Under the pieces are notes generated by a model. That model ran no database searches. It worked only from the letters and a program-made list of their open reading frames with translations, and was not told the DNA's origin. A stretch of DNA of 64,000 bases from Straminergon stramineum (taxonomy: Eukaryota; Streptophyta; Bryopsida; Hypnales; Calliergonaceae): positions 8,189,001 to 8,253,000 of the forward strand of contig OY987266.1 of the NCBI GenBank assembly GCA_963920665.1. Reading direction: 5' to 3'. Positions 1 through 50,451 of this stretch are shown here, piece by piece. The first letter of the stretch is position 1. Each line of letters begins with the position of its first letter. The position numbers and the translations under genes were made by a program.

Positions 1-3000
1 GAATGGTGCAACACCTAAAACACGATTATCAACTCTAGTGACCCTCAAATGAATAAAAGTGATTTGATTCTATAGTTGTGAAAATATATCATTACAATGA
101 ATCCAGGAAGGTATCAAAATGTAGTAATAAAAAAAACCCATCCAACCCTATGTTTTGATATAATACTTGGTCAATGTTTTCAAATGATAGATGAATGTTT
201 GAACAACTAATAGCTTCCAACATAGAATGTATACTATTAACTTTGGGTCTATGGATGTTGAATATTCCATTCATTGTTTGTTAGAAAAAAGTCACAATTA
301 ATAGTAGAAGACAATGATTTTGATCAACTTGTTTTTGGCTTGAAATCTTGGTTTCTGATACAAGACATCCTCTAATTGCAATTCAAACTCTAGAGTTTGG
401 GCCACAAGATAGAACACAATGTAAAACAAGCTTATGAGATGGAAAAAACAATAGAAACAATTAATGAGAAAACACCCAAAATTGTCAAAATGAGCAATTC
501 ACTATAGTTGGAGCTATCTTTTTCTAGTAAAGAAATATTTTGTAGTATTAGAAATTGAAAATGATGAATTAAAAAATTTATAATTATTGGACAAGATATG
601 TAATTGCTATGAATTTTCAATGTGCAACTCCCTAGGCCGTTGAAAACATCACATAGCTTAGTCATCATATTGAAATCTAATGAATCAACAATCAACTAAT
701 CATTGTTAAGTATAGGAACAATTTCAATAGAAGTCTACTTGACCAACTTTGAAATTAAATTCTTTTTTTGATGAATCAAAATGTCATGAAACAAAGTTTG
801 TGCACCCCTCTTTGATAAAGGCTTTCCAACAATACCAAAAATGAAAATTGGGGACGCATGATCCAGGAAATCTCATTGTAAGAAACAAACAAAGCAAGCA
901 AAACAAAACAACCTCAATTAAGGTACAAATATGTACAATTATCTTTTCTGTGTTAATGCCCTTATTGGCATGAAGCAAACATATGATGTCATATGTCTCC
1001 CAATAAGATCCCCAATTTAGAATTTTTTTAATTCAAGGTGTCCTATGTATTTAAATAAGCTCTTGTATAACAATTTTCTTTCAAAAATTGCTAACACAGT
1101 GAATGCCTAGCCAAACTTGCAAAAAGCCCAAATTGGGCTTTTCAATCCTTTTACACTAATAAATAAACTATGCTTCACAATGAATGCCTATTGCTTAAAT
1201 TCTACAATATTTTAAAAGATTTTTTAAGAAGGAATAGATATCATTCTAGAACTCTATGGCAATATAGCAAGGTCACCCACATAGTAAGATTGTAATTCCA
1301 TATACAATACTATTGTCAATAGAATTCTAACTTGTTGGATAATTTGGAGCATATTATTAAAGAAAAAGATATATTATATTAATGTATGCATGTGCCCATG
1401 CTTTTGATATGAATAAAATCTCAAATGTGGGCCTAGTGAATGGTTTGGGATTTGGTTGAAGACGGTTCAAAGATATACCTAATTATAGAATGCTTTAGTC
1501 TTCAAGTCTTGACTTAAGAAATTCACAATTATTATAAAAATTCTTCAATTATAATTTTTTTCTTATGATTTCCATTTGTCTACACGTTAATAAATGATCT
1601 TTGAACCTAGATTGTCTCATTAGAAAGTCAATCATTATGTATTTGTTATAGTACTTGTTTGAACACCAATGATTATATTAATTGATCCTTTGGCCCTCAC
1701 TCACTAATGGATTGATCGATCTATTCTTTAATCAAGATTGAGAAATGTGGAACAAGTGCAATGTGGAGTCTTGGTTGAAGGAGACATACCACCTAATGAA
1801 GGCATGTGGAATGGTAAACCAAGATCAAGACTAGGTTGCTAGAAAATTGGACACAAAATAAAAATACGTGGGCTTGGGTTGAAAGCCTCACATTTGTTAG
1901 TTCCTCACAATATCTATGGAATACATTCATGTTGAATATTATTCTTTCTTTTCATTGATGTATTACATGATCTTCTTTGAATCTTCCTTAGGAATATCAA
2001 TTGAATGAAGAGTAATTTTCAAACCATTTACCATCCACTTGGTGGGTGGTTAAACATTTAGCAGCTAAACAATTGTAAAGTTGCTACAAGCATCACCTAA
2101 GATCTACTTGCATGATAGAGTCAAACTAGTTCTAAATTATTTTTTATAGAATGCACATAAAAGAAAAATATCTTGGCACGCTTTAACCTTGGAAGGATGT
2201 TGAGGACATTTTGTGTCCTTCAAATAGTCAAGCAGACTTTGAGCATATTGAAGGATGGATGATTTTCATCCAATTTCATGTATGCAACTTTAATGATGTT
2301 AAAGTCACATCATTGAGTTATGTTCCAGAAAAAAATTTGTATTTTGATTTTATATGGAGTAGTTTATCAAAAACATGGTACACTATCTACTGTATTTCAA
2401 TACTTTGAATATTTTCCCTTAGAACTTGATTTTGACATTCATAACCATTAGAAGAGATTTTGGGGCAAGGGAGGGCCATTTCAAGGCTATTCCCTTGGTT
2501 GTTCCCCTTGTTGTTTGGGAACTCTAAAGTCTGAACCAACCACTATAGCTAGAATTTTTGAATTAAAATTCTTTTAAAAGAAATTTAAATTTTTTAAAAA
2601 AAGTATCAGAAAAACTAAGAAATTATATAAAAAAAAAGTATTTAGAAATATGAATTAATTAATACTATTTGACATGGCCATCTCCTAACCACGTCTAATT
2701 GTTGATGTAGTGAGTTCCCACAATTTGGGAACTCCAAGGAGCTCATGGGCTTCTTTAGCCTAAAAATCTCTTCTAATGGATTGCTTTTGCTTTTGAGAAA
2801 ATCTAACAAAACAAAGCTTCTGAAGTGCAATTTCTACTCCACTTAGAATTCTTAAAAAGTACCTTAAAATAGGCATTTTAGTGAAGTTTGAAGTTGAAGA
2901 TCTATGACCACATTTCTATACATGGAGGACACAAAAGTTTTCTTTATACGACAATGTTCTACACTATAATGTAATTCTTTTTTGAAAATTTTAGATTTTT

Positions 3001-3201
3001 TGAACATGATTTATATTTGATATGAAGTTTCTTCATTTTTCATTCAAAAGTTCATTATAATTTGGAATTTTCACAAAGAATTTTAAGAAAAATATTAAAC
3101 ATGTAATTTCATCTCTGAAAATTAAAACCAACAAATTTCATTCATAAATAGAGAAGAAATGGAGGATACATAATGGAGGACTTCCAAATTTGACTCTACA
3201 C

Positions 3202-3469
3202 GGTCATAAGCTCCATCCTGTAGGGGGCAATTGTATGAAGTCCATTCAAACCTCTATATAATATGATCTTTTGATTGTGGTCCAAATCTCATTTATTAAT
3301 AAAACCCATGATGGCGTTTGAAAATACCCATAATGGGGTCATTGCATAGGTGTCCACTATGGGGTCTTTTGACTACAATGGGTTGTTTTACCTTATACAT
3401 GGTCATAATCTTTATCATGTAGGGGGCAATTGTAAGAAGTACATTCAAAACTCTATATAATATGATCTT
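3202..3469. repeat. Internal direct repeat of about 70 bp in block R
   Basis: Two similar segments (about 3202-3271 and 3401-3469) both contain tgtagggggcaattgta followed by ctctatataatatgatctt. The same pair recurs in the other R copies, near 40647 and 40853 and near 61147 and 61345. The duplication therefore predates the spread of block R. No function is visible. Confidence 0.7.
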
Positions 3470-5877
3470 CTCTACAATATTATGACATTCTATAATTGTA
3501 CACATTTGCCTCATTATCATTGACTATTCATACACCCAAATTTTCATTATGATTGTCATTTTGGTGGGAACACAAGCAATGAGATGAAGGAAATCAAAGT
3601 GAAGTGAGAAAGTCAATGTTTCATTTTACCAAGCCATTTCATAATAAGATTCATTACTAATAGTGACAAATCTCTACCGTCGATTTTGTTAGATTCTCAT
3701 GAAAGAAATGAGAGTAACAAATCTTTTAGGGGCAATGTTTTGCAATCTTTGAGGTATTAGAGCTTCTTGCAATATGCTCAGCTCGTCCCTACATTTTCAA
3801 AGAACAATTGAAAGTCATTTTCATGTTGACTAATGAACTCCCAATGTCAACTTATTATGGAAATGATGTTTCATGGTGCATGGTTTCTTATCGAATTTGG
3901 GCGTGGACTAAAAAGTCGCATCCAATCAATGGGATTGTTGCCATCTTTCAAAGAGGGGTTAGATCAATGTTTTTTTTACAATTTTGGAGAAGTAGCCACT
4001 TGTTTCCTCAATACTCATGTCATATTTGGTGATATCTACATCAAAATTAAAGGATACTTAGATAAAATTTAGCCATTGGTCTTAATACTATAGTAATATG
4101 GTTATTTTGGCCCCCCCAAATGAATTTTTTCTTTCCAAAAAATAGCCAACATCCTTTGGTAGTAGCCAATTGGCAAAAGAATGTGTATAAAAAAACATTG
4201 GATTAGATCCAAGGAGTTAAAAGAAAGCACAATTGTGTCAATTATTTTGAATGATTTTCTCAAAAACTACTCTCATTTCAATGACCATGGTGCATTGCAA
4301 GCTCCACCCAATTTTTAAAAATAACCAAAATGTTGTGAAATTTTAGTTGAGTATTTTCATCTCTCATATCTTTCACAAAACACATAATGGTCAACATTTC
4401 AAAATATTCTTACTAAAATATGTTTCTCCAAAATGGATTGTCTTGTTTTTCATTTGATCCAAGAAAAACTTGAAACTTAAATACCTATTAAACCATGTAG
4501 TCAAATAATGTGAATTTTATTGACAACATCTTCTCTTACAATATAAACTGCAGGATCCTACAATTACATTCTATCCGATTATGCTTAAGATGTTGGTAGT
4601 ATTGGCTTGTTTTGAAAATATCCACCCTTGAGTCATCAAATGTTAATTCATGTGTGCTCAATCAAATATTTTGTAGTCGTTTCTCATAGTTTCTTCATGG
4701 ATTTTTCTTTTTCTATATTTGATCAATTTTTTTAATATTTTAATATTCATAATAAATATCATTGTAGTAAAAAACATTATTGTAGAAAAGAACATAAAGT
4801 GTCTTAACATGAATCTAATGTTAAATCATTTACTAATAGACAAAAACAATGATGTTTTTACTATCAATTCTTTTCTTTAATTTTATCGCACAATATAAAC
4901 ATCATTGTAGCCAATCATAAAAAATTTCAATTTCTAAAGATAAAAATGATATTTTTGGTGAATTTTCAAAGCTAATTACTTCTAATTTGATTTTTAAATT
5001 TTGTCTATACAAATAAATCCTTATCATTATGTTGAACATCTTCTCTTCAATGACCTTTTAAAAAGAAAATTTAGAAGTCATATTTTTTTGGCATGTCTAT
5101 GTTTTGTCTTATAGCCCTTAGGCATCTAGGGATCAAACAACAAGCCTTTGACCACTAAAATTAAAGTCTAATATTTGCAATTTCTTACCAATTTTACAAT
5201 TGAAATTGATGTAGATTGCATTTTTTTGCCATGATTAGAACCCATTGCATCAAAGGTTGACATCCTCAGTTACTACCCTTTACAAAGTGGACTCTAGACA
5301 TTTGATCCCGTTGAGCTCCTAAATGCTAAATTATGTATAGGACAATGCTCGAGGAGCAAGGAATTCAATTAAAAAAACATTGACAAGGAGGACAAAGCCT
5401 GATGAGGAGTTTTTTTTGTGGAATCCCCAACAGCAAGCGACATTGCTTGGTATAAACCATCAAGGGAAAATTATTTTCAAAAAAGATAACTATTAAGCAA
5501 GTCCCTACAAGACCTCCGCAAGGCTACTATGTGCCTTCTAAGGAGCACTATGCTTCAAAATTGGACTAGCAACTAAACCACAATCCAACTAATCGGTCAC
5601 TTAGACATTGGTTGAGTGAATTTCAAGTAAAGGTTTATTTCTGTATATACACTTTGTAATGAACAGCAATATGGAATGCATAGACTTCATAATCACCAAT
5701 ATTCGCCTTCTTGTTTAGATATCATTGGAGGTTTTGTAAATGTATTCAATCACAGGCTCACGTGCAATTTGAAAGCTCTTTGTAATGCATTTGTAGGATT
5801 TGTAGTTGGCAAATGTAGTCTCAAGGTTTGCAAATTCTTGCACATTTGTAATCTCTTTGAATGCTTAATGTAGTTAA

Positions 5878-10868: not shown

Positions 10869-11810
10869 TTATTTGAATTCCCACTCCAAATTCTTCAAAT
10901 TGATCAAAGCCTCCCTACCAGGGATCTCCTTGACACTAGTCCCCCTCAAATCCAAAGAAACCAATGCCTTCAAATGCCCTAAGAATGGAAGGCGTTTTAG
11001 TGACTTGCAACAGTAAAGGATTAATGAAGTCAACAAATGCAATTCTTCTACACCTTCAACATCTTTGACACTACTATCCGACAAATCCAAGTGGGTCAAC
11101 CCCTTCAAGCAACCTAACTCTGATACACTTCTCAGACTCCTGCAATGCCGAAGTTGGAGTGCCGTCAAAGCTTGAAGCCCACTCAAGCCTCGGATGCTAG
11201 AAAAGGTACAACGTGTAAGTGACAAGAATGCCAAGAACTTCAATCCCTTCAAATTCTCCAGGTCCATTTCTGACGACCTCTCACCAGACATCTCCAATCT
11301 CCGCAATTTAGCACAATGGCTGAACGCAGACAATTGCATAGGCATCAGTGACTTCTGCAAAAGACTTCGTGATACCCGAATTTCCCTCAAAGAGAAAAGG
11401 TTTCGTACATCAGGAAAATCGTAATAAGCAGGACACGACCATATATCAAGTGATCCAAGACTGGTTGCAGCTTCCCAACCTGCCACCGAGTTGAAATTTG
11501 GACAACCAAACACGCCAAGGTAACGCAAGCTGGGAAATTTTCTCAAATCCAAATGCTTAAGTTCTTTACACCCCCAAAGAGTCAACGCTTTAATATATTG
11601 AAGTGAAGACTGCTCAATGGGAAAACTCTGACAATAAGTCTTCAAGTGGGGATTCTTGCAGAATACTTCCTCGAAGATCTTTTCGTACACCCATGACTTT
11701 AAGTTCCATGTTTTGCCCTTCCAAAGATCTATATGGGCAAGATCCTTTCCTTCTTCAAAACAATCCATGCCGTCGACTTGCACAAGTTCAAGCTGCCACA
11801 GCCTTGATAC
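10869..11810 (-). CDS. Exon 10: leucine-rich-repeat domain
   Basis: A 942-nt terminal exon encodes 313 residues with about ten LRRs, many of the form L-x-x-L-x-L-x-x-C and L-K-x-L-x-x-L-D-L. The style resembles LRRs of plant TIR-NBS-LRR immune receptors, but no NB-ARC P-loop or TIR domain is visible anywhere in the block. It joins exon 9 (12263-12051, 71 residues, helical) through NY/VSRLWQLELVQ in phase 0. Such LRRs normally bind proteins or recognise ligands. It ends in WEFK before the stop. Confidence 0.92.
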   Translation of the reverse strand, partial: VSRLWQLELVQVDGMDCFEEGKDLAHIDLWKGKTWNLKSWVYEKIFEEVFCKNPHLKTYCQSFPIEQSSLQYIKALTLWGCKELKHLDLRKFPSLRYLGVFGCPNFNSVAGWEAATSLGSLDIWSCPAYYDFPDVRNLFSLREIRVSRSLLQKSLMPMQLSAFSHCAKLRRLEMSGERSSEMDLENLKGLKFLAFLSLTRCTFSSIRGLSGLQALTALQLRHCRSLRSVSELGCLKGLTHLDLSDSSVKDVEGVEELHLLTSLILYCCKSLKRLPFLGHLKALVSLDLRGTSVKEIPGREALINLKNLEWEFK

Positions 11811-14800
11811 CTACGCACAAATGCAATACGCCACATAAGAGTAGAATGACTCTTAGAAAACCCAAGTTCTCATACGAAACCAGTTGTGTAATGAAGTGAC
11901 GTCTAGCAGTTGAATTCCATAATACTTCAGATACCACATAGTCTCATAATCATTTAAACAGATGAAAATCAAGAATTCAGATCATGTAGGAACAAGAAAT
12001 ATGAAGCAAACAAAAATAACGATCTCGAAATGGTGGAAAACAGAACCTACATAGTTCAAAATGTCCCTCGGTTCACGGTCTTGCAAAATTGCTAGACGTC
12101 GACATACTACCTCCATAGAGATAAAATTTACGGAATACACTCTCTCTTCGACCAGATTGAGTAGTGTAGATTGCAAGTCCTCATCCAAAGAACTAAACAC
12201 GGTCGTTGGGACAACATCGCGAAGTGCAACCGCAACTGGTCCACAAGCAATATCCAATGCAACCTGAACCACGCGCATGACCCAATCAGAGCGAGCAAGC
12301 AAACATAAATTGTGAGAACATTATCACCTTCCTCGCGTACAATCATCTTCAAGAAGCATCTTGTTCTCACATATGAATCAATATAGACACTCTCATAACC
12401 ACAAACTGAATCTTCAGGAAACTGAATCCAAGAAAAACAAATGCATCATTTGAATACACAAAAGAATAAAAAAAAAACAAGAAATCAATAATCCAATCAC
12501 TAATCCAAAAAGAAGGAGAATGCCAAAATACAAGTTTGAACTGAGAACAAACTTACAGCTTCATCCTTAAATGGCCTTTCGAATGACATTGGTGGTGGAC
12601 TGGGAGCAAGTGAGTCACGTGAGCTCAATGGATGCAAGCCTTTACATACATTAGAACTCAACTTCATACGCTTCTGAGATATATTGGCTGGGTCGCAAAT
12701 TTTATCCAAAATTGTGTACCATTCCTGACTCAAGCTCGTTGCCAATTTCAAGGCAAGTCGCTCTGCTTCTGTTATCGCAGAAAATTCCTTACCAATATTC
12801 TTGTAAGATTTATAAGCCTTCCGCAAAGTTTCATATCGGCGCCGACATTGGATTGGTGATCGCTTACTTCCATGTTTCTTTTCAATTTCTTCAGAGATGA
12901 GCTCCCAATTTGTACCACCTCTGCTCTCGTTGCAGAAGTGACCTCCTTTCAACTTACATGAAAGCAACAGCCCAGTCTCCGCATCTGTCATATACCGTCC
13001 TCTCTTCTTTTCTCCCTTTTGAACTTCAGACAAATCCATACATGGAACTTCTTCAAGCTTGTCTGGATACATTGTAGTGGCTCTTTCATACTCGGGATGT
13101 GCATGCTCAAGACCATCCAACGGTTCATCATCCAACCTGAACATCTTGCTTGACTGTTGATGTTCCACATTGATTGTATCCTCTTGAGTTGACACATGCT
13201 TGGTCTCAAAAATTGGACTATTGACATTGGTCAGGCCAACCGTCTGCACCTCAGGCTCGGCATGCTGTTGCTTGGGTGATAAACTTTCACATCTATTTTC
13301 ATACTCCAAGGGATCACTCTGAGGACCACTCAATGGTTCATAATTCCCCCTTAATATCCCACTGGACTCATGGTGTTGGGCATACATTATATCTTCAACA
13401 ATGGAAGCATGGTTGATCTCACAACATTGACCATTGAAAATGGTTGGGCCGACAATCAACAGGTCTTTGATGCATGCTCTGAACTTCCCTGCAAAACATA
13501 CCCCCTAATGACTAAGGTTCTGAACTCCACTATGATTTTGAAGAACATGCAGTACTATATCCCCAAAAGATGCGACATCCAAGAACTTGGTGCACATTAC
13601 GTCAGTCTCAATTGTAGCTTTAAAAATTTTAATTTGAGATCTCCACCATGTGCTGACAATAGATGGTGTGCCTCTGATAAATTAGTGTCACATGCATAAA
13701 TAGAAAGAATCCGAGTAGGTCATTCAGCTCCTCTATGCACGCATTGAACACAAACATCTTTGAAATGTGACCACTTGTGGACATCGTAATTGCGCACAGA
13801 CAACAAGGAGTATATACAAACTATCACAACCTCATCTCTCACAGTGGAAGAAACATCACCTTCATCCTCAAAGCATGCCCGAAGCTTTCGAGAGGTTTGC
13901 ATGAGCTCTTGAACAAGGTGCTTAATTTCCTCACGCTTTTGGAATTCACCTTGAAGCTTGAGAATGAGGTCCTGGATCTGTCCCCGTTTGGACGAAACCT
14001 CCGCTGCAAAAGGTCGACCAGTAAAATGCGGACCCCTTTCACTTGAAGCAAAGCTGAAGTCGGGTGAAGTGAACTCCTCCAGAAATGATTCAATATAGTG
14101 TAAAACATATAAACCACAATCGTGGGAATTGTCTTGTTGGGGAACCTACAATGAAAATTTGGCAACATGAAACTTCCATATTATATACACTGTGAAACAT
14201 TTTTTGTAACCTTTGCATAATTCTGTTTTTAAAAACAAACAACCACGAATTACTCAGCGATAACAGACAATACCTGAGCTTGAACATACTTCATCTTCAA
14301 GAGTCCTCGTAACTGATGTCTGTCTTGATCGCTGTCCATCCATGCTTCCAAGACATAACTGCACAAAAGACATAACCACCATTCTCACAAAAACGTATGG
14401 GCAACAAGCCAATTGCACAATCTAACATTACCAATCTAGAAAACAGGGCAAGCAACCGCTACAAATTCTCAAAGTGAAATTACAAACTACTGCCCAAAAC
14501 TACCCTCGAGTAATTTAGGCCCCAAACATACTACACAACACACCAGTTATGATACTTTCACGTTTGACCTTCGCAACAACTTTTCGTTTTTTGCAAAACT
14601 AGTCGGTACACAAATGGACAAGTGAACCTTGAACCTATACACACACTTGAGAAATGCCAACCCTATAGCATATGTACATAAATGGAACTTTGAACATTCA
14701 TATAGAAAACGATCTAAACGTAGGGAGACGCTTTCAATCCATGATGCTAGTCAAAGACTCACCTCCGGATCATTTCTTCAAAGCTCGCATGTTGCCCTTC

Positions 14801-15836
14801 AAGCGGATCCAGATGAACTATACAAGGGAGTCTCATCGTTTCACCTACATAGAAATCAACATTAGTTTGTTTTGACCAACGGTCCATAACCGATTATACA
14901 TTCAGACCCATGCAATGAAATACAGACTCACCAGCTGCACGAGTCAGGCTACTGAGGTTGCATATGATGACCAAGCTCCAATGTGAACTGCCATCCCCAA
15001 ACGATCACCACAATATCAGAGCTACAACACGTGCACAAATCCTCTCTTTGTCAACCAATCAACTCATAATGTTTTACTGGACAAAAACAATCAACGCCTA
15101 GAAACTTTACATCAAGCAGGAGATTCAAATCTTCAAAAACCCTCACAATTTGCAACCGTGTTTAAACATATAGCACAATAGGACTACCACCTTCTCACGA
15201 TAGGTATGAAAACATAGTCTTTTTCAAACAGGTTCACTTCCTTGGTCCAACTCCGGAGTTGCTTGTAGTCCACCTGACAGGGATCGATGGGTGTAGATCC
15301 ATTACTTGGGAAAAGCTTCTGAAAGAAAAAGCTGTTGAAGAAATGAAAGAGCTTCCCATGCTCACGGGAAAGTCCGCTTTCGAGGTACCTGCAATCAGGG
15401 CAATCAGAGCACAACACAGGCAGAGCTTCTATAGGAGGAAAACCATTGATATTGAACAACCCTCTCAACAAGTGATTATCAACTAGAAAGAACAAATAAT
15501 CAAATCATCTATGGAACCCAAAGCATGGAGCTCTCACAAACAGACCAGCAACAGGAGTACTCACTTGATATAGAAATCCACGATGTCATTGCCTAGACAC
15601 TTCCCCGGCTGTAGTTCCTCCATATCTCTCTCAGTGATGGCTCCCGCATCACGAAGCAATTCTTGTGACGCCTCAACTTCTTGGGGGAATTCCTGGATCG
15701 CTAACTGACACGTTGTCTCTGCTTCCCTTAAAGCAGGATCGGTCTTGGAAATGCCAACGGGCTTGAAATCCAAATGGTGCACTCCAGAACTACCTCCAGT
15801 CATCCGACCCAGTATGGGCGAACTCAAAGTGGTCAT
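10869..15836 (-). CDS. Ulp1-type SUMO protease / trihelix / LRR fusion protein, ten exons (copy 1)
   Basis: Minus-strand exons: 15836-15565, 15388-15191, 14987-14932, 14844-14763, 14358-14274, 14145-13860, 13488-12557, 12421-12371, 12263-12051 and 11810-10869. All introns are GT-AG, and every junction phase matches. The sum is 3117 nt (about 1038 aa) without internal stop. Order: Ulp1/SENP (C48) protease (about 70-260), helical charged stretch (about 280-325), acidic linker, KKRGR basic patch and trihelix (about 487-586), helical region (655-725), LRRs (726-1038). Predicted role is removal of SUMO from proteins, probably nuclear, with DNA-binding and recognition domains attached (inference from families). 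The start ATG follows an in-frame TAG three codons upstream in the unspliced sequence; a further 5' exon is possible. It could be two adjacent genes, but the short phase-0 intron between trihelix and LRR parts argues against that. The exon-6 donor is GTGATG, weaker than GTGAGT in copy 2. Confidence 0.72.
12371..12421 (-). CDS. Exon 8: 51-nt symmetric micro-exon
   Basis: Preceded by a pyrimidine-rich tract ending in GGATTCAG and followed by GTGAGA. It encodes 17 residues (FPEDSVCGYESVYIDSY) in phase 0 on both sides, so skipping it keeps the frame between the trihelix and LRR parts. Copy 2 retains a related peptide sequence but has lost the 3' splice site. Assignment rests on phase and conservation only. 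Confidence 0.6.
12557..13488 (-). CDS. Exon 7: acidic linker plus trihelix (Myb/SANT-like) DNA-binding domain
   Basis: A 932-nt exon encodes about 310 residues. The first 150 are acidic, low in hydrophobics and probably disordered. A basic patch KKRGR precedes a trihelix-type domain: MTDAETGLLLSCKLKGG, then NWELISEEIEKK, then RSPIQCRRRYETLRKAYKSY. The second-helix Trp and the QC-RRRYETL-YK signature are typical of plant trihelix factors. The first-helix Trp is not visible, so that helix is atypical. The exon is bordered by TTGCAG/GG and GCT/GTAAGT and is 88-90% similar by eye to copy 2 (28455-29386). Trihelix proteins bind GT-rich promoter elements; target DNA here is unknown. Confidence 0.85.
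13860..15836 (-). CDS. Ulp1/SENP cysteine protease domain (exons 1-6 of the copy-1 gene)
   Basis: Six exons encode a recognisable C48 fold. Exon 1 ends with LQPGKCLGNDIVDFYIK, the usual family entry. Exon 2 holds HFFNSFF and FEKDYVFIPI. Exon 3 starts at the catalytic His motif SSHWSLVIICN (His159). Exon 4 has IVHLDPL (Asp188). Exon 6 opens with VPQQDNSHDCGLYVLHYIE, giving the oxyanion Gln235 and nucleophile Cys241. All residues needed for catalysis are present. The family removes SUMO from proteins or matures the SUMO precursor. After the domain, exon 6 continues into a Lys/Glu/Gln-rich helical stretch. If the exon-6 donor is not used, translation runs on to a stop at 13720, giving a protease-only protein of roughly 370 residues. 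Confidence 0.93.
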
Positions 15837-19642: not shown

Positions 19643-20562
19643 CCCCTATAGGACCATGATCCCCTTGGGGGACAAATTAGATATGGGATGGATCCCTATG
19701 GTTTCAATTTTTGTCATGATTTTTTCAAACTTTTTCTTAAGATAGACATTAGATTTTAGGGGATATAATCTTTATTTCAACATGTACTGAGGAACAAGAA
19801 TTATGCTAGATATGCTCAAAACAAGGGAGACTGAGTAAAAAAAAAGAACTCACAAAAATTTGAATTTTGGAATTTTTCATTTTTTTTCCATGGATTATAT
19901 TTTTGTTTACATAAAAAGCTTTGATTCATTCCATTTGGATAAGTGATGTGAAAGTTATGAAGCATCTTGTTTTTTGAGCAATCATAGCAACTTCTTGAAA
20001 AAATAATGTGTTGGAATCATTTTCAAACTCAATTTTCCTAATTTTCAAAAAAAGAAGTTTCACAAGGTTGAGTTTGCTTGCTAGAACAATCTCACCATTG
20101 GGCTTATTGTGTTTCAATTCCATCTTAAAGATATTAATAATTTAGATTTTCCTTCTATCTCTTACCCACTTCTCCTTAATTATTTTTTTAACAATGAAAA
20201 CTAAATTGTTATTTTCCTTTTAAAAAAAAAGATTCCTAGACTCTCAATTCAATTCTCCATCATATAGATTCAAATCTCAAAACTTTGTAGTGCCAAAACT
20301 AAAGTTAAGAGGGTTCAAAGTCAAATAATCTAATTACACAAAGTGCACAAAAATTTGTTTTCTTCACTTTAAACACAAATATCTTACAAATTGTGAGGTC
20401 AAGAATTTCGAAAAAAATTTCCACACATTCTCATACTAATTAGATGTAAGACCCTATGGTTAGGTGTGCAAAATAAAATCTTCAAAGTTTTTTACTCTTT
20501 GCAATAGAAATGGCAATTTTGAATGTTTTTTAGACAAAGAAAAAGCTACCATCCTAAAGGGG
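19643..20562. mobile_element. 920-bp element of the CCCCTAAAG family
   Basis: The left end reads CCCCTATAGGACCATG and the right end ATCCTAAAGGGG, with TTCA and TTGA flanks that look like decayed TTAA. Length and interior match the 925-bp element at 5878, including a shared tract with gtgatg and aaagttatga near 290-300 bp from the left end. Its right part (from about 20107) is also present in S copy 2, ending at 47598 where TTAA follows. Confidence 0.65.
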
Positions 20563-23129
20563 TTGAACCAAACTTGTAGGATATGCAAAAATCTTTTATA
20601 ACCACATGAGAAAGAATGGATCGTCTTATTGGAAAATGAAATTAACTATAAACTACTTGTAAAGATAAGTTATTCTAAAATAATCCTAAGAAAATGTATT
20701 TTGGAAATATTTATGATATATTATTAAAATACCTGTACAAATATTCCAAAATTACAAATACCTTGAGAATATATATATTTTTTCATTCCCACCCCCCCCA
20801 AAAAAAAATACCCTTTGCATATCACAACAGGAAGTCTAGATTTTATATTATATGTCCCCCACCTTCAAACTTGTGTAATGTTTCTAATGTTACACATAGT
20901 AGCAAATGGTTGCAAAGTAATAGAACCTTTATTGAATGATTTTGAATCTTTTTGAAGGCACTTCAAACATGCACTTATAGAGCATTTGAAGGTTTCTTCA
21001 ACAAATGAGGGACTTTGAAAATTCACAAAAAGGACCAAAAGTCTCTAGAAAGAATACTTTATTGCAAGAAATTTTATGATTTTTATTTGCCATGCAACAA
21101 GTAAAAAATAGCCCCTAATTGTAATTTTGACTCTATCTATGCACACCAACTTCAGTGCATGGTTTTTGATCTTTCTATTTTATGGTATTTAGAAGGCTCG
21201 TTAAATTTAAGGATAATATTTCTAAGGTGGAGGCACCTATTCCAGCTACTATATTTTAAATCAATCATGAAAATATAAAAATATGGAAAGTCCAAAGTGT
21301 GTAGCTTACATATATAAATGTGGAAAATGAGTTTGGAATATATTATATATTTGAACTTCACAAATTCATAGCATTTTCATATATGTATTCACACAAATAT
21401 CAATTTAAAAAATACGATATTCCATTGACAAATATACACGTTGAAAGATAAATTTTTACATTTTATCCACCTCAAAGTATGTGAAATTGCTTAAAGTGAT
21501 GGAAATAGGTGCTTCCACTTTATAAATATTATAGCACATGAACCACTTAATTACCATGTACATTTCTTATTTTTGAATAATTCATCTAAAAATCTTAGTG
21601 GATATATAATTTCACTAATATGATAATTCCTACTAGCTCCCTCTATAATGATTGTGAGGATTTTAAGACTTATGAGTTGCGAAGGGGCCGTGGGATAAAA
21701 TTGTAAGGTAATTTTTTTATAAAACCATTCACCAAGCACTCTTGATTTCAATGAGTCATTGGAGTGAGCTGTGAAAGGTTTAGTGACTAGTGAAATCACG
21801 AATTGAATTGAGGTCAAATACTCGATAATTGGTGGCATACAGATGTTCACTTGGTGAAGGTATGATATTAATATGTTGGTGACACACATAGTCAAGGAAC
21901 TTTAGGGGTCAACATCTTATAGTTAAGGCCAATTAAAGCACAAATTGTATTTGAAGTAGAATTTTAGACATCATTTAGGCATAGTAGAATAATGTTTTTC
22001 AAAAATTTTGAACAAAAAAGAGTTGGGAAATCAAGTGAAATTTCATACTCAAAAACTCTTTTGAGATTTCAAGTCTTCAATCACAAGTTATGGACAAATT
22101 TCAAAGAGGGGTTGGAAGGGACATTTTTTTCTTTACATTTTAATCCTTCTCTTTGAATTTTGTCCACAACTTTTGATTAGAGTCTCAAAATTACAAGCGG
22201 ATTTTGGAAGATGAAATTTAGATTGATATCAAAACTTTTCTTAGTCTAAAGTTTTTGAAAAGAGTTATTCTAGCATGCCTAAATGAGATCTCCTATTCTA
22301 CTTCAAACATAATTCCTACATTTTGACAATGAGCGTTTAAGTTCTCATCTTCAAGTTATCCCATACCTTTTGAGGAGTCATGATGGACAATGAATTTCTA
22401 TATAAAAATGACATTCACTTTTCACTCCCTTGTTCCATAAACTTGTTAAGTTGTCAATATGTTGTCCATGGCAACCCTTGCCGATTTGCATGTTTGGATG
22501 AGTTTTTGGTTGTCCTTGCTACGAGCTACATAAATAGCTTCCCCATTAGCCATTGAACTCTTCGACACCATTGTACATTGGAGCATGGTCCATGAATCGG
22601 TGACAAGTACTCTTCATGTTTCAATTGCTCTCCAAAAGAGAGTTGTAGACAAGGGTGGAGTAGACTATGTAGAAGCATAATCTAACTCTAAAGTTGTAGC
22701 TATTCACCACCATGGTCAACAACTTTATTCAAGCTTCTAGTTTTTTAGTAGATTTAGGAGTTATGATGCCACATCAAAATCTCTCCTCAATCCTTACAAA
22801 TCACTTCAAAAAGCTCACTCACAATTTCAAAGTTAATTGTTCAAAAATGTACACATTTAAAGAGAGAAATGTTGCACCAATAAAAGTGTGACCACTAAGA
22901 ATTGCGCTACATTGGATTGCAAAATTTGAGACAAATTTATTATATAGTTGTTAGGATAAAACTCCCACGAGCTTTGGGCAATTGATTGTTCATACAATTG
23001 ATGATGCCACATACTTACTAGAAATTTTGTTGGCCTTTGTGCAAGGAGATGGAGATGTACTAGAAGAATATATTTCTATAATCAAGAAACCACATCATAG
23101 AACATGACGGTAAGTGGTTGCAAGGAAGA
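20107..23129. repeat. Block S, copy 1
   Basis: Collinear with 47137-50188. It starts inside the 920-bp transposon and ends at gcaaggaaga. It is AT-rich, and frames of 60-115 codons are not conserved in the second copy. The sequence is therefore treated as non-coding. Confidence 0.8.
21889..21904. mobile_element. Isolated terminus of the CCCCTAAAG family
   Basis: The sequence aaggaactttagggg, preceded by cacatagtc, equals the right end of the 5878-6802 element and is repeated at 48912-48927. The partner end could not be assigned with confidence. Candidates are 19643 or 18310, which would imply a larger or composite element. Confidence 0.5.
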
Positions 23130-26768: not shown

Positions 26769-27707
26769 TTATTTGAGTTCCCACCTCAAATTCTTCAAAT
26801 TGATCAAAGCCTCTCTACCGGGGATCTTCTTCACACTAGTCCCCCACAAATCCAGAGAAACCAATGATTTCAAATGCCCTAAGAATGGAAGGCCTTTTAG
26901 TGATTTGCACCAGCTAAGGTCTAATGAAGTCAACAAATGCAATTCTTCTACACCTCCAATATCTTCAATACCACTCGACATCATATCCAAGTGGGTCAAC
27001 CCCTTCAAGCAACCTAACTCTGGTACACTTCTCAAACTCTTACAAAATTTAAGTTCGAGTGTCGTCAAAGCTTGAAGCCCACTCAAGCCTCGGATGCTAG
27101 AAAAGGTACAATCCGGAAGTGACAAGAATGCCAAGAACTTCAATCCCTTCAAATTCTCCAGGTCCATTTCTGACGACCTCTCACCAGATATCTCCAATCT
27201 CCGCAATTGAGCACAACGGGTAAAATCAGACATTTGCATCGGGATCATTAACTCGTTGGATGCCCATCGGTTTACCGAAATTTCCCTCAAAGAGATAAGG
27301 TTTCGTACATCAGGAAAATCGTAATAAACAGGACAAAACCTTATGTCAAGTGATCCAAGTCGTTTTGCAGCTTCCCAACCTGCCAACGAGTTGAAATTTG
27401 GACAACTTGACACGTGAAGGGACCGCAAGCAGGGAATTTCTCTCAAATCCAAATACTTAAGTTCTGTGCACCAGAAAAACCTCAACACTCTAATATATTG
27501 AAGTGAAGACTGCTCAATGGGAAAACTCTTACAATAAGTCTTCAAGTGGGGATTCTTGCACAATACTTCATTTGAGATCTTTTCATACACCCCTAACTTT
27601 AAGTCCCATGGTTCGTCCTTCCAAAGATCTATATGTGCAAGATCCCTTCCTTCTTCAAAAACCATGCCCTCCACTTGCACAAGTTCAAGCTGCCAAAGCT
27701 TTGATAC
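26769..27707 (-). CDS. LRR-encoding last exon of copy 2 (open)
   Basis: Encodes about 312 residues of the same LRR layout as copy 1, with one codon fewer near the start. Scaffold leucines and the blocks LENLKGLKFLAFLSL and GVEELHLLTSL are preserved. The two residues before the conserved Cys of most repeats differ. No stop interrupts it, unlike the protease part. It is listed separately because it may still be expressed. Confidence 0.7.
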   Translation of the reverse strand, partial: VSKLWQLELVQVEGMVFEEGRDLAHIDLWKDEPWDLKLGVYEKISNEVLCKNPHLKTYCKSFPIEQSSLQYIRVLRFFWCTELKYLDLREIPCLRSLHVSSCPNFNSLAGWEAAKRLGSLDIRFCPVYYDFPDVRNLISLREISVNRWASNELMIPMQMSDFTRCAQLRRLEISGERSSEMDLENLKGLKFLAFLSLPDCTFSSIRGLSGLQALTTLELKFCKSLRSVPELGCLKGLTHLDMMSSGIEDIGGVEELHLLTSLDLSWCKSLKGLPFLGHLKSLVSLDLWGTSVKKIPGREALINLKNLRWELK

Positions 27708-28454
27708 CTACGCACAAATGTAATTCACCAGGTAAGAGTAGAATGCCTGTTGGAAAACCTCAGTTATTAGACAAAACCAGTAGTGTAATGAAGTGAGGTC
27801 TATCAATTGAATTGCATAATGATTCAGATACCACATGGTCTCCTAATCATTTCAGCACATGAAAATCAAGAATTCAGATCATGTAGTAACAAGAAATATG
27901 AATTAATCAAAGATAACGATCTCAAAATGGTGGAAAACAGAACCTACATAGTTCAAAATTTCCCACGGTTCACGGTCTTGTACAATTGCTAGACGTCGAC
28001 ATACTGTTTCCGTATAGGTAATACGTAAGTAACGCACAGACTTAGTGTATAAGCACTCTTGGACCAGATTGAGTAGTGTAGATTGCAAGTCCTCATCCAA
28101 AGAACTCAACACGGTCGCTGGGACAACATCGCAAAGTGCAACTGCAACTGGTCCACAAGCACTATGCAATGGAACCTGCACCACACGCATGACCCAATCA
28201 GAGCGAGCAAGCAAACATAAATTGTGAGAACGTTATTGCCTTCCTCGCAAACAATCAACTTTAAAAATCATCTCGTTCTGACATATGTATCAATATAGGC
28301 ACTCTCAAAATCACAAAATGAATCTTCAGGAAAAACAAATGCATCATTTGAATACACAAAAGAAAAAAAAACAACCAAGAAATCTATAATCCAATCACTA
28401 ATCCAAAAAGAAGGAGAATGCCAAAATATAAGTTTGAAGTAAGACCAAACTTAC

Positions 28455-29386
28455 AGCTTCATCCTTAAATGGCCTTCCCAATGACATTGAAGGGGGATTG
28501 GGAGCAAGTGAGTCAAGTGAGCTCAATGGATGCAAGTCATTACATACATTAGAACTCAACTTCATACGCTTCTGAGGTATCTTGGCTTGGTCGCAAATTT
28601 TATCCAAAATTGTGTACCATTCCTGACTCAAACTCGTTGCCAATCTCAAGGCAAGTCGCTCTGCTTCGGAAATCGCAGAAAATCCCTTACCAATATTCTT
28701 GTAAGATTTATAAGCCTTCTGCAAAGTTTCATATCGCCGGCGACATTGGATTGGTGATCGCTTACTTCCATGTTTCTTTTCAATTTCTTCAGAGATGAGC
28801 TCCCAATTTGTACCACCTCTGCTCTCGTTGCAGAAGTGACCTCCTTTCAACTTACATGAAAGCAACTCCCACGTCTCCGCATCTGTCATTTTCCGTCCTC
28901 TCTTATTTTCTCCCTTCTGAACTTCAGATAAATCCATACATGGCACTTCTTCAACCTTGTCTAGAAACATTGTAGTGGCTCTTTGGTACTCGGGATCTAC
29001 AAGCTCAGGACCATCCAACGGTTCATCATCCAACCTGGATACGCTGCTCGACTGTTGATGTTCGACATTGATTGTATCTTCTTGAGTTGACACATGCTTG
29101 GTCTCAAAAATTGGACTATTGACATTGGTCAAGCCAACCGTCCGCACCTCAGGCTTGGTATGCTGTTGCTTGGGTGATAAACTTTCGCATCTATTTTCAT
29201 ACTCCAAGGGTTCACTCTGAGGACCACTCAATGGTTCATTATTCCCCCTTAATATCCCATTGGACTGGTGGTGTTGGGCATACATTGTATAATCAACAAT
29301 GGAAGCATGGTTGATCTCACAACATTGACCACTGAAAATGGTTGGGCCAACAATCAACAAGTCTTTGATGCATGCTTTGAACTTCC
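28455..29386 (-). CDS. Trihelix-encoding exon of copy 2 (open)
   Basis: 932 nt, the same length and borders as exon 7 of copy 1. It carries ENKRGRKMTDAETWELLSCK. Here a Trp is present in the first helix (AETWELL) where copy 1 has Gly-Leu, making the copy-2 domain closer to the usual trihelix pattern. The NWELISEEI and QCRRRYETL motifs are retained. Confidence 0.7.
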
Positions 29387-31737
29387 CTGCAATACATACC
29401 CCCTAATGACTAAGGTACTGAACTCCACTACGGTTTTGAAAAACATGAAGTACTATATCCCCAAAAGATTCGACATCCAAAAACTTGGTGCACCTTACGT
29501 CAATCTCAATTGTAGCTTTCAAAAATTCTAATTTGATATCTCCACCATGTGCTCAGAACAGATGGTGTGCCTTTGATAAATTAGTGTCACATGCATAAAT
29601 AGAAAAAATCCGAGTAGTTCATTCAGCTCCTCTATGCACCCATTGAACACAAACATCTTTGAAATGTGACCACTTCTGGACATCGTAATTGCGCACAAAC
29701 AACAAGGAGTATATACAAACTATCACAACCTCATTTCTCACAGTGGAAGAAACTCACCTTCATCCTCAAAGCATGCCCGAAGCTTTCGAGAGGTTTGCAT
29801 GAGCTCTTGGACAAGGTGCTTAATTTCCTCACGCTTTTCGAATTCACCTTGAAGCTTGAGAATGTGGTTCTGGATCTGTCCCCGTTTGGACGAAACCTCC
29901 GCTGCAAAAGGTCGACCAGTAAAATGCGGACCCCTTTCACTTGAAGCAAAGCTGAAGTCGGGCGAAGTGAACTCCTCGAGAAATGATTCAATATAGTGTA
30001 AAACATATAAACCACAATCGTGGGAATTGCCTTGTTGGGGAACCTACAATGAAAATTGGCACAATCAAACTTCCATATAATATACACTGTGAAACACTTT
30101 TATGTAACATTTGCATAATTCTGGTTTTAAAAACAAACAACCAAGAATTAGTCAGCGATAACAGACAATACCTGAGCTTGAATATACTTCATCTTCAGGA
30201 GTCCTCATAACTGATGTCTGGCTTGATCGCTGTCCATCCATGCTTCCAAGACATAACTGCACAAAAGACAGAACCACCGCTCTCACAAAAACATATGCGC
30301 AACAAGCCAATTGCACAATCTAACATTACCAATCTATAAAACATGCCAAGCACCCGCTACAGATTCTCAAAGTCAAATAACAAACTGCTGCCCATAAAAA
30401 CCTTCAGTAATTCAGGCCCCAAACATACTACACAACACACCAGTTATGATTCTTCCACGTTTATCCTTCACAACAACTTTTCGTTTTTTGCAAATCTAAT
30501 CGGTACACAAATGGACAAGTGAACCTTGGACCTATACACACACTTGAGAAATGCCAACCCTAGAGCAGATGTACATAAATAGAACTCTGAAAATTCATAT
30601 ATAAAACGATCTAAACGTAGGGAGACGCTTTCAATCCATGGTGCTATTCAAAGACTCACCTCCGGATCAAGTCTTCAAAGCTCTCATGTTGCCTTCCAAG
30701 CGGATCTAGATGAACTATACAAGGGAGTCTCGTCGTTTTACCTACATAGAAAGCAACATTAGTTAGTTTTGACCAAGGGTCCATAACCGATTATACATTC
30801 AAACCCATGCAATGAAATACAGACTCACCAGCTGCACGAGTCAGGCTACTGAGGTTGCATATGATGACCAAGCTCCAATGTGAACTGCCATCCCCAAACG
30901 ATCACCACAATATCAGAGCTACAACACGTGCACAAATGCTCTCTTTGTCAACCAATCAACAGATAATGTTTTAATGGACAAAAACAATCAACGCCTAGAA
31001 ACTTTACATCAAGCAGGAGATTCAAATCTTTAAAAAACCCAACAATTTGCAACCGTGTTTAAACATATAGCACAATAGGACTACCACCTTCTGACGATGG
31101 GTATGAAAACATAGTCTTTTTCAAACAGGTTCACTTCCTTGGTCCAACTCCGGAGTTGCTTATAGTCCACCTGACAGGGATCAAGGGGTGTAGCTCCATT
31201 GCTTGAGAAAAGCTTCTCACAGAAAAAGCTGTTGAAGAAATAAAAGAGCTTCCCATGCTCACGGGAAAGTCTGCTTTCGAGGTACCTGCAATCAGTGCAA
31301 TCAGACCACAACACAGGCAGAGCTTCTATAGGAGGAAAACCATTGATATTGAACAACCCAGTCAACAAGTGATTATCCAGCAACTACAAAGAACAAATAA
31401 TCAAATCATCTATGGAACCCAAAGCATGGAACTCTCACAAACAGACCAGCAACAGGAGTACTCACTTGATATAGAAATCCACGATGTCATTGCCTAGACA
31501 CTTCCCCGGCTGTAGTTCCTCCATATCTCTCTCAGTGATGGCCCCCGCATCACAAAGCAATTCTTGTGACGCCTCAACTTCTTGGGGGAATTCCTGGATC
31601 GCTAACTGACACGTTGTCTCTGCTTCCCTTAAAGCAGCATCGGTCTTGGAAATGCCAACGCGGTTGAAATCCAAATGGTGCACTCCAGAACTACCTCCAG
31701 TCGTCTGACCCAGTATGAACGAACCCAAAGTGGTCAT

Positions 31738-33230: not shown

Positions 33231-33363
33231 TATGTTACAATTGCATACTAGCATTCCATGTCAGACAGTGAAACAGATGACGTACTATAGTTCCTGGCCC
33301 TCCAGGTGCCCAATGGAAACAGTCCCTATAGTCCCTATGGTAAGGCGGGAATGTATGCGCACG
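33231..33363. other. Short unique spacer between G copy 2 and block T
   Basis: No supported feature. It contains two close copies of tccctatag. Confidence 0.4.
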
Positions 33364-33630
33364 GTCGAGACTATAGTAGTGCGATGAGCCGAATGCGGAG
33401 ACAGTTTTGCCCCCGCATTTTACCCTTGGGGAAAACGCAGGAATGATTTATTTGCAAGGCATGGAAAAATTTGCAAATTTTGAGTTCATATTTGCAATCA
33501 GAGACCCCAAATTAGCTAGGAGCATTGTAGAGAAATAGATTAATCAAGCACAAAATAGGGGGTCTTTTTTTTTACATTCACCCTTGGCTGGACCTCCGCA
33601 TTCGGCTTGTCGCACTACTATAGTCTCGAC
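33364..33630. mobile_element. 267-bp MITE with inverted repeats of about 35 bp
   Basis: The start gtcgagactatagtagtgcg is mirrored at the end (cgcactactatagtctcgac), and the repeat continues into the agccgaatgcgg region. It is a compact fold-back with no coding capacity. A second copy at 50189-50451 lies at the left edge of the other T block. No target duplication could be defined, so the superfamily is open. Confidence 0.8.
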
Positions 33631-34824
33631 CTATCAGCACCTGCTTCCACCAATAATAGAAACGACAACAAATGGAAAGGAGTGTCAGGGCCAATGGCAA
33701 ACCGCCGGAATTTCTGCAATTCTAAGAAACAACTCCGATAGCTGACTGACGTGAACTTGGGAGGTCTTTTGGTTGGACTCGTCCCGGATTGTCCGACATC
33801 GGAGCGGGTTTCTTCTTCATGACCCCGAAGGAATCCACTCTCGTGCTTCAGTTCAGTTGGTGACCATTTGAGGTCAAGTTATGCATGTCTTGCAGAGGTT
33901 GCGGTAAGTAGCTCCACAAATTTATGCCGAAATTCTTCGGAAGTGGGTTTCCAAATCAAATGGAAGGAAACTCAGATTGAAGGAAAGGGAAAAAAAGGTT
34001 GTGGAATGGGTTAAATTGTTTTGAATTTGGCATTTGTTCGCACACATTTAGTGGCTTTGGACTAAAGAGGAAAGAGCGTTGCATTGATTTAAATCATAAA
34101 TGACAGAGTGGACTTTTTTTGTCCAATGAATGACAAGGAATTCTCTTGTGTAGGATAGAAGTGCAACTATTCTTCCTCAGAATTAGGGGTGGAAAGGGGG
34201 AGATCTTCTACAATAGTTTGACTCCCAATGAGTATTTTTGTTTGTTTTTAAAGTGATTGATGTCACACGATTCCAAAAGGCATGATTTCCATGGTCACAA
34301 GTCTAGCATTTTAAGGTTAAGTGATATACCATGGGGAAGCTCGAGCACCTACCAAACTTGAAATCAAAGTGAGTGAGTGATACAAGGATTGAGAGAGTCT
34401 CTTGTTGAGTAGTGTCTCCCTTACTAAAAGAAGGAATTAACTTATAGCTAGCATACTTTGTAGTTTTACTTCTTAGAATGAAATCCGGTTTCATTTGTGT
34501 CACAAAAAAAGATTTATTTTACAAAAACATGGTGATAGTATGTTCTACCAACAAAATATTTTTTTACCAAGTGAAGAGCCTTCCAATTAATCTTACGAAA
34601 AATCCAAGTATCTAGTAAGAATTAATGCGCCTCCAAAGGATGAGGTGGCCACACTTCCTAGACTCATAGTAAGGATGACTCTATCTTTCAGCCTCTATTC
34701 TTGGATGCTTCATAGGGGCCCAGGTTTTAGTAGTTTAGAATGTTTGATAGGTTAGTCAAATTTTATATGTAAGGTATTGTATTGTTTAAGGTAATTACAA
34801 TGAATTGCAACTTTCTAGCGTACC
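33631..34824. repeat. Block T, copy 1
   Basis: Collinear with 50452-51616. It includes the promoter-like tract with gtcccggattgtc and catcggagcggg near 33780, and the segment also found at 17640-17830. No conserved reading frame. Confidence 0.8.
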
Positions 34825-42974: not shown

Positions 42975-44259
42975 TGTCGCGCCCCTTAGTGACACTTACC
43001 ACCTTAAGTTCACCTTCCAATGTTTTCCAGGCACTTAACACTTTAGTGGCACCAAGGGTCACACTCTTTTAACACTGCACATGCCACGCACATCTAAGGT
43101 TAGTCTCCAATTCCAACTCTTTATGCTAAGCCCCGGTCACCGGGACTACTAGCACTTACATACCTATCATGACACTGGAGCATGTTATTTGGTAACATGG
43201 GGCGGGACTTCCATGTTATTGTACAAGGACCTATGGTGGCACTACTCACCATGGTCTTAATTGCCCTTGAGTGTCACCCCAACTCCATACTAGACTCATT
43301 GTGTATTTGCTACTTTCTCCTTCGTCACTAACCGGGACTCACGATTCGGAACACCTCAACATAGCTTAGCAAGGAATGGGACTCCACCCAACCTGTGCCA
43401 CGGGGCACACACAAGTCTCCTACGGTACTTTGTAGTGGTGGTGACCCCACACCACCAACCTTGAGTTATCGGGATTCACCAAGGTTCCAAAAGGGAGTGA
43501 GGAGTGAGACCAACCCCTCCTATAGTACTCTCTGTGGGATTCAGCAGCCCTCCCCCCTCGTATGTCAAAGGGGACTCCCAAACCCACTTTGGTTTTGGAA
43601 GAGCACCCCATTTCTCCCGATTCGCCCTTGTGTGGGACTCCTGAACTTCCATCCGGCATAACTTTGCGGTTCGGGCTCCAAATCTCACATGCGAGCCCAT
43701 TTCCGACATCTGCTCGACGAGTAGATGCTGATGGACTACTCACTTGCCCCATTTGGACAAGTCCTTGCAAAGTTATCGCCCTCCAAAGATTCGGGTCCAC
43801 CGGGAGAGGCGTCACGCCTTCACCACGGCGCTTCTCTTGGCCATAACTTGAGGCTCCTACCTTAGAACTTCGTAATGCTTGTCAATATAGCATCCTTGTG
43901 TTCTTAGCTTTCCAGGGATATGTTACATGACATACTTCATGGAGGGATTCCTCATGAACCCCTCAGCCCTTAAGTGTCCCGACGCCACCGAGACACCCCT
44001 ACCTTTGAACGTCCATAACTTTTGACTCACAAGTTCAAATCATGCGTTCTTTGAACGGCTAGAAGCGTCTCCTTGAGACCTTTCTAAGCATGTGTTACAC
44101 GCCCTCAAATTCGTCCGGATCAAAGCGCTACCATGCTCTGATCGCTCGGGACTCCTAGTCCCCCTCACCTCATCTCTTGCAAGGCTTGGGGAGTCACCCC
44201 CAATGTCCCCCTTGCTCACCAAGGTGGCACAGGCACGCCTCGTGATGAGGGTCATGACA
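42975..44259. mobile_element. Solo LTR, 1285 bp, TSD GGTAC
   Basis: Begins TGTCGCGCCCC and ends TCATGACA (TGTC...GACA). The 5-bp duplication GGTAC lies outside (42970-42974 and 44260-44264). Copies 1 and 3 of block R have the empty site near 5527 and 63478. It is far richer in GC than the surrounding DNA. Open frames inside are on both strands and overlap, as expected for unselected GC-rich sequence. No gag/pol is present. Confidence 0.88.
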
Positions 44260-46809: not shown

Positions 46810-47136
46810 TTCTGAATGAGGATAATTCTGAATTTTGATTGTGGAACCGGAAATGAGTGATTTCAAATGAGAATTGGCTTGTTGAGAAGGTAGTGACGAT
46901 GGTGCTATGCAGTGGAAGAATGGCCAATAACTACAGGAATGAACAGTAGTGCCTCTTTCTGTGGCTTAATTCGCTAATGTATCATCTGCATTCCCCTCGA
47001 TACATTTGGTATGTCCAAGTGCTGGAGAGTGCTTGTGATGACACATGGAGTTGCTCAAGCTCTTCTTCTTGAGGCGGATTTAGCCGAGTTAAGTAGCAGG
47101 ATATCTTCGATTTGGAGGAGGAACGAAAATGGACTT
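46810..47136. other. Remainder of the unique island before block S
   Basis: GC-balanced, non-repetitive sequence ending abruptly at the S copy 2 boundary, where the 920-bp transposon is cut. No conserved frame is recognised. Confidence 0.4.
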
Positions 47137-50100: not shown

Positions 50101-50188
50101 AAGGAGGAGATAGAGATGTGCTTTAAGAATATATTTCTATAATGAAGAAACCACATCGTAGAACATGATGGTACGTGGTTGCAAGGAA
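47137..50188. repeat. Block S, copy 2
   Basis: Collinear with 20107-23129. It begins with the right half of the CCCCTAAAG-family element, whose end at 47598 is followed by TTAA. It contains the isolated terminus at 48912-48927. Non-coding. Confidence 0.8.
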
Positions 50189-50451
50189 GAGACTATAGAA
50201 GTGCGACGAGCCGGATGCGGAGACAGTTTTGCCTCCGCATTTTACCCCTGGGCAAAATGCAGGAAGGATTTATTTGCAAGACATGGTAAAATTTGCAAAT
50301 TCTGAGTTCATAGTTGCAATCAGAGACCCCAAATGAGCTAGGAGAGATGTAGAGAAATAGATTAATCAAGCACAAAATGGGGGGTCTTTTTTTAACATTC
50401 ACCCTTGGCTGGACCTTCGCATTGGGCTCGTAGCACTACTATAGTCTCGAC
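50189..50451. mobile_element. Second copy of the gtcgagactatag MITE
   Basis: About 263 bp, ends gagactatag...ctatagtctcgac, related to 33364-33630. It sits exactly where block S copy 2 meets block T copy 2. Confidence 0.78.

Follow-up and report, generated by a model that had tools for sequence, protein, structure and literature searches.

A fused protease, trihelix and LRR gene in two tandem copies

We analyzed a stretch of 64,000 nucleotides from the moss Straminergon stramineum (contig OY987266.1 of assembly GCA_963920665.1, positions 8,189,001 to 8,253,000; "the window", to which all coordinates refer). Its minus strand encodes a gene that combines a ULP2-like SUMO protease domain, a trihelix domain and a predicted winged helix continuous with a leucine-rich repeat (LRR) domain (copy A, 10869..15836). 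A tblastn search of the window with the copy A protein revealed a tandem paralog on the same strand (copy B, 26769..31737). An earlier note on copy A had described nine phase-compatible GT-AG junctions and an exact reading frame of about 1038 residues, and the gene splices in this way: the ten-exon model rebuilt from the window has GT-AG borders at 9 of 9 introns, and its 3117 nt encode 1038 residues with a single stop at the end. Exons 1 to 7 are located at 15836-15565, 15388-15191, 14987-14932, 14844-14763, 14358-14274, 14145-13860 and 13488-12557, and exons 9 and 10 of this model at 12263-12051 and 11810-10869, all on the minus strand.

Exon 8 of the ten-exon model, a micro-exon of 51 nt (12371..12421, minus strand), is in frame and so dispensable to the reading frame. 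Its acceptor is missing in copy B, as read by eye, with 14 gap columns in the alignment of intron 7 between the copies, and its residues have no counterpart in the aligned proteins of the moss Ceratodon purpureus. Because of these two findings we rejected the micro-exon, which is probably not the true exon that had been proposed. The likelier model of copy A, as judged from sequence, has nine exons comprising 1021 codons and a stop. The gap columns of intron 7 give copy A a possible acceptor for the micro-exon that copy B does not have. Read-through of exon 6 into intron 6 would stay open to 13720 in copy A, but in copy B, as read by eye, it is closed after a few codons, a further sign that intron 6 is spliced.

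Copies A and B sit in a repeated block of about 6.9 kb with 90.8% identity. Apart from the micro-exon, copy B has the same exons, with identical phases and GT-AG borders, and the exon lengths match except for in-frame changes in the last two (213 versus 228 nt and 942 versus 939 nt in A and B). At codon 220 copy B has an in-frame TGA (30205..30207, minus strand) in place of the CGA of copy A; no other stop or frameshift was seen in its exons. By these comparisons copy A is a real fusion gene, beyond what chance would produce, because a copy about 16 kb away keeps its exons and phases (micro-exon excepted) and Ceratodon proteins from others' annotations align along it. The proposal that protease, trihelix and LRR form one gene is thus borne out by copy B, where order and phases are unchanged, and by their retention in Ceratodon.

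Domains of the copy A protein

A Pfam search of the spliced protein, as the earlier note had suggested, placed Peptidase_C48, Myb_DNA-bind_4 and several LRR families above their cut-offs. Peptidase_C48 matches residues 81-259 (E 7e-30, 104.8 bits against a cut-off of 20.7), and the protease domain as a whole (residues 81-300; 13939..15596) is split over exons 1-6. The catalytic residues His159 (14981..14983), Asp188 (14807..14809) and Cys241 (14116..14118), and the preceding Gln234 of a VPQQ motif (14137..14139), are intact in both window copies. In the comparison run here the protease is nearer to Ulp2/SENP6-7 than to Ulp1/SENP1-3, so that its former assignment to the Ulp1 type gives way to a ULP2/SENP6-7-like protease with a complete catalytic site, from which we infer SUMO cleavage. 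The SENP6/7-Ulp2 class edits SUMO chains.

The trihelix match (Myb_DNA-bind_4, PF13837) covers residues 494-559 (E 1e-8, 35.5 against a cut-off of 27 bits). We delimited this Myb/SANT-like domain at residues 484-600 (12668..13018, minus strand) from the Pfam match and from the three helices (441-451, 464-478 and 484-504) in a predicted model of the Ceratodon relative P0003. By its sequence the domain would bind DNA and could direct the protein to chromatin.

The LRR domain occupies residues 780-1021 (10872..11597, minus strand). Upstream of it, an exon previously called "helical" as a separate element appears instead to start a winged helix that runs on into the LRR. As mapped by alignment from a predicted model of the Ceratodon protein P0026, the winged helix starts at residue 660, its exon 9 part lies at 12051..12197 (minus strand) and its wing continues in exon 10. 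The modeled arrangement fits the winged-helix domain (WHD)-LRR half of nucleotide-binding leucine-rich repeat receptors (NLRs).

Exposed LRR positions diversify between the two copies

We set the LRR strand register (xLxLxxC) by eye on copy A, with copy B already seen. Of the 44 solvent-exposed positions in this register, 26 are replaced between the two copies, as compared to 37 of the remaining 198 LRR positions (Fisher p 2e-7), and none of 241 circular shifts of the register reaches 26 (maximum 24). The nonsynonymous divergence (dN) of exposed codons is 0.53, which is 4.7 times the gene-wide synonymous divergence (dS) of 0.112 (bootstrap 95% 2.9-7.5) and 3.3 times the LRR dS of 0.161 (1.8-6.2). 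When exposed codons are taken alone their dS is raised too (0.28), and dN/dS is 1.89 on 6.5 synonymous changes. Changes in these codons fall 19, 17 and 10 times on codon positions 1, 2 and 3.

The LRR part of exon 10 diverges by 14.3% versus 7.2% for the 3′ flank, exon 6 by 2.4% versus 5.9% for intron 6, and exons 1-7 are mostly equal to or more alike than the 5′ flank. By region, dN/dS between the copies is 0.57 for Ulp and 0.56 for the trihelix (few changes in each), 0.44 for the linker, 0.99 for the LRR and 0.76 overall. Gene conversion may contribute, since the 5′ half is more alike overall between the copies.

Relatives in Ceratodon purpureus

Protein searches covered about 5.8 billion proteins. 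The search with the copy A protein, which scored the 7989 candidates sharing most words, returned two C. purpureus proteins with the full architecture, P0001 and P0002, which are 39% identical along 94% of the query, and a third, P0003, that has Ulp and trihelix but no LRR. It missed P0026, which was new among the 51 matches of a second search. The 49 matches from outside Ceratodon include a few from animals; where the name is specific it is mostly ubiquitin-like-specific protease 2A/2B, and the others are named "hypothetical", "Ulp1 peptidase" or "Peptidase C48". Precomputed Pfam assignments list the trihelix (PF13837) or an LRR family in none of these 49. A search with the trihelix and winged helix of P0026 (residues 370-720) gave 11 matches, all of them from Ceratodon. 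According to precomputed Pfam assignments, nine of the 11 carry Ulp, trihelix and LRR together, and so in these relatives of the window gene the three parts are not always unlinked; P0003 is without LRR and P0082 without Ulp.

Two genome annotations (M758 and KC19) supply the names of the Ceratodon proteins, and some of the proteins are thus likely alleles. Read as chromosome and order, the names assign ten to chromosome 4, where nine fall in the interval from 4G087500 to 4G091500, and the remaining one to chromosome 11. In an unrooted tree of Ulp domains (29 rows, including two from the window and seven from Ceratodon), the window and Ceratodon domains form one clade with 100/100 support, which favors a single origin of the fusion; long-branch warnings applied to other rows. 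We considered P0082 as an ancestral form before the protease was gained, and rejected this. In a midpoint-rooted tree it groups with the Ceratodon proteins, so loss of the protease or an incomplete gene model is likelier, although it sits on a long branch and its position is uncertain.

We mapped the exposed positions from copy A to the Ceratodon proteins by alignment. Among four close proteins (P0026, P0001, P0076 and P0002; paralogs or alleles), exposed sites differ in 62% of pairwise comparisons. The corresponding values are 12% for other LRR positions, 9% for the core, 25% for the winged helix, 3.6% for Ulp and 3.0% for the trihelix, and none of 219 register shifts reaches the value of the exposed sites. 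Thus, among close copies the exposed residues of the LRR beta-sheet diversify far faster than the protease and trihelix. Across the ten LRR-bearing Ceratodon proteins the exposed sites differ in 65% of comparisons, other LRR positions in 21%, the core in 14% and the winged helix in 35%, again with 0 of 219 shifts reaching the exposed-site value.

We also counted columns with entropy of at least 1.5 bits. For the four close proteins they number 0 of 184 in Ulp, 0 of 109 in the trihelix, 14 of 88 in the winged helix and 28 of 260 in the LRR (exposed, 14 of 37); for the ten, 32 of 238, 14 of 104, 31 of 100 and 49 of 270 (exposed, 24 of 40). Together, Trp, Phe, Tyr and His account for 21% of the residues at exposed positions and 10% of those in the rest of the LRR. 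High-entropy residues therefore gather on the exposed LRR face, with some also in the winged helix, as in highly variable NLR sensors, here among gene copies rather than alleles. Such a pattern has been described as a mark of NLR target-binding surfaces (PMC8226289). The suggestion that the LRR serves as a sensor or substrate-binding arm gains from this sensor-like surface, and a ligand would be expected to bind there.

Structural likeness to NLRs

NLRs convert LRR recognition into a response through NB-ARC. The widest structural match of the winged helix and LRR of the P0026 model is to the WHD-LRR half of the helper NLRs ADR1 and NRG1. Unlike these, the moss protein has no RPW8 or NB-ARC that we could find, and its exposed LRR face is hypervariable and sensor-like. 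Pfam scans gave no NB-ARC in the window protein or P0076-P0082 at E ≤1, nor in P0001-P0003 at E ≤10, and none is in the precomputed list for P0026. Scans of the window protein, P0001-P0003 and P0076-P0082 found no other known signaling domain.

The NLR link rests on structure, because sequence searches gave no credible match to the winged helix. In single-sequence and profile searches of the PDB, the best matches were an SPX domain (E 1.2) and a MarR protein (E 0.57), and we do not claim proof from sequence of an NLR origin. At E ≤10, none of the WHD families of Pfam had a match in P0001-P0003 or in the window piece. We also rejected a GLPL-like stretch before the copy A winged helix (ACGPVAVAL) as an NB-ARC remnant; it is not conserved in Ceratodon, and it lies too near the winged helix for the spacing of NLRs. 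The winged helices of P0026, P0001, P0076 and P0002 and of the window (12263-12051) have a hypervariable stretch of their own between helix 1 and helix 2.

Comparison with known proteins

The soybean Rpp1 genes (four neighboring gene names) are listed against soybean rust with a ULP1 protease domain, and a title cited in the same source calls Rpp1 a ULP1-NBS-LRR protein, NBS being the nucleotide-binding site (PMC9528084). Peptidase_C48 also appears in a table of NLR integrated domains for F. vesca, G. max and Z. mays (PMC4759884). Like the window protein, these combine a C48-type protease and NLR parts in one plant protein. Of the ULP1-NBS-LRR parts the window protein has the ULP and LRR, and no NBS was found in it. 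The moss proteins differ from Rpp1, known here by description alone, in having no detectable NB-ARC and a trihelix between protease and LRR. Rpp1 is the nearest in kind to the moss fusion. The earlier note knew of no described protein with its combination of domains, which needs narrowing: the pairing of ULP with an NLR-type LRR is already in print, and the moss proteins add a DNA-binding domain and have no detected NB-ARC. We found no description of a trihelix joined to both ULP and LRR in the literature searched.

Judged by match names, the nearest protease relatives outside mosses are plant SPF1/SPF2 (ULP2b/ULP2a), which have the same catalytic residues. PF25352 is present in 34 of the 49 non-Ceratodon matches, but was not found in the moss proteins (Pfam scans of the window protein, P0001-P0003 and P0076-P0082; precomputed list for P0026). 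Bacterial effectors of the XopD type likewise combine DNA binding and C48 SUMO protease domains within a single protein (PMC8415633). PF13837 is the common domain of trihelix (GT) transcription factors, and in the moss version it is fused to a protease and an LRR; the search with the P0026 trihelix and winged helix covered this comparison with Ceratodon proteins alone among its matches.

The surrounding array

The window resembles a tandem array. Blocks at 2-5528, 37478-42975 and 58452-63827 are about 92% alike, and further pairs are 20099-23129 with 47130-50190 (91%) and 33359-34822 with 50181-51631 (92%). The third array unit seems to be without the fusion gene: the block ending at 50190 runs into the block starting at 50181, with some 10 bases at their junction that match either block. 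A 49-base tandem repeat is located at 53471-53718 (5.1 copies, 96% matches), with more short repeats within 54246-54836. A Pfam scan of 10 other open reading frames in the window gave two weak matches, neither above cut-off, and an Rfam scan at gathering thresholds gave no matches.

Interpretation

In combination, the results show a ULP2-like domain and a trihelix fused to a WHD-LRR-like half without detectable NB-ARC. We give about even chances to the reading that this is a tandemly duplicated moss family of probably nuclear recognition proteins, in which an NLR-like, fast-evolving sensor is joined to a chromatin-directed deSUMOylase. The WHD-LRR would bind a protein that itself changes rapidly, with a pathogen effector as the likeliest candidate and some other foreign or selfish protein as the alternative, and the trihelix would hold the recognition protein at chromatin by binding DNA. 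Ligand binding would position or switch on the protease, and SUMO would be stripped from the ligand or from neighboring regulators, with changes in defense transcription as the outcome. Such a protein would be NLR-like in recognition, with an enzyme active at the DNA as its output rather than an NB-ARC-driven assembly.

Several observations weigh against this reading. Copy B is interrupted by its in-frame stop. Trihelix domains typically hold conserved Trp residues; copies A and B have Met at the first of these positions, and each of the 11 Ceratodon proteins has Trp there. Constancy of Ulp and trihelix is confined to the close Ceratodon proteins: among the ten with LRRs these domains differ in 36% and 35% of comparisons, more than the non-exposed LRR positions (21%). 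Between the window copies, the dN/dS values of Ulp and trihelix rest on few changes, and the ratio is 2.7 at residues 1-80 (10 changes) and 1.1 at residues 601-655 (14 changes). When only Z is considered, ADR1/NRG1 (25.3) are level with bacterial LRR proteins (25.1). The fusion was found only in C. purpureus and the window; as the search with the copy A protein scored only 7989 candidates, this does not imply absence elsewhere. In Ceratodon the catalytic Asp of P0001 (M758_4G088800) is Asn, the catalytic-site Gln of P0077 and P0078 is Arg, and the gene models of P0079 and P0081 hold only the later half of the protease domain and that of P0082 none. Protease activity is thus not kept in every family member, and some Ceratodon members may be inactive as proteases.

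A stronger form of the recognition-protein reading, which we put forward tentatively, is a class of plant intracellular receptors without a nucleotide switch. In these the hypervariable WHD-LRR would directly gate a chromatin-held ULP2-type protease, so that recognition and deSUMOylation output would reside in one protein.

An unlikely alternative, slightly less probable than that stronger form, is that the Ulp and trihelix are an integrated decoy. They would mimic host SUMO proteases and transcription factors attacked by effectors, the WHD-LRR would report to a separate NLR, and catalysis would be dispensable. The altered or halved protease domains of some Ceratodon members, the wide structural match to helper NLRs and the precedents of Rpp1 (PMC9528084) and of Peptidase_C48 as a listed NLR integrated domain (PMC4759884) are consistent with a decoy. 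However, Ulp is nearly constant in the four close Ceratodon proteins, the window copies retain the catalytic residues, and the Pfam scans found no NB-ARC or other known signaling domain that could report. To a substrate-recruiting deSUMOylase we assign the same low probability as to a decoy. Here the variable LRR would act like an adaptor, picking SUMO-modified transposon, viral or meiotic-drive proteins, whose SUMO or SUMO chains would be stripped and stability altered with no immune signaling. A SENP6/7-Ulp2-like protease and a hypervariable LRR agree with this; the NLR-like fit of the winged helix and its attached LRR speaks against it.

It is improbable that the array is decaying or transposon-linked, an accidental fusion copied by local duplication with copies A and B non-functional or barely used. 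Copy B, with its in-frame stop, may be a young pseudogene, and one array unit seems to be without the fusion gene. Given a single CGA/TGA difference and no other stop or frameshift, any decay of copy B would be recent. Copy A is fully open, Ceratodon has the same architecture and shares the 100/100 Ulp clade with the window, and neither the site-specific LRR diversification nor the likeness of exons 1-7 relative to the 5′ flank resembles neutral decay. Least credible of all is a gene-prediction chimera of separate neighboring Ulp, trihelix and LRR genes: transcript ends might in principle lie within the linking introns (371 nt and 293 nt), and the Ceratodon sequences are likewise gene models, but copy B has the same order and phases, nine of 11 Ceratodon proteins carry all three domains, and these proteins align across the junctions.

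If the recognition-protein reading is correct, having a SUMO protease and a DNA-binding domain where NLRs have the NB-ARC switch would provide a short route from recognition to transcription. The receptor repertoire of C. purpureus has been put above 315 in a study in which the words SUMO and protease do not occur in the main text (PMC11218826). C. purpureus has been called a model moss (PMC10057591), which makes the idea of a recognition protein testable. In addition to Rpp1, the family would be a further case of a ULP protease joined to an NLR-type LRR, which would mark SUMO as a recurrent battleground.
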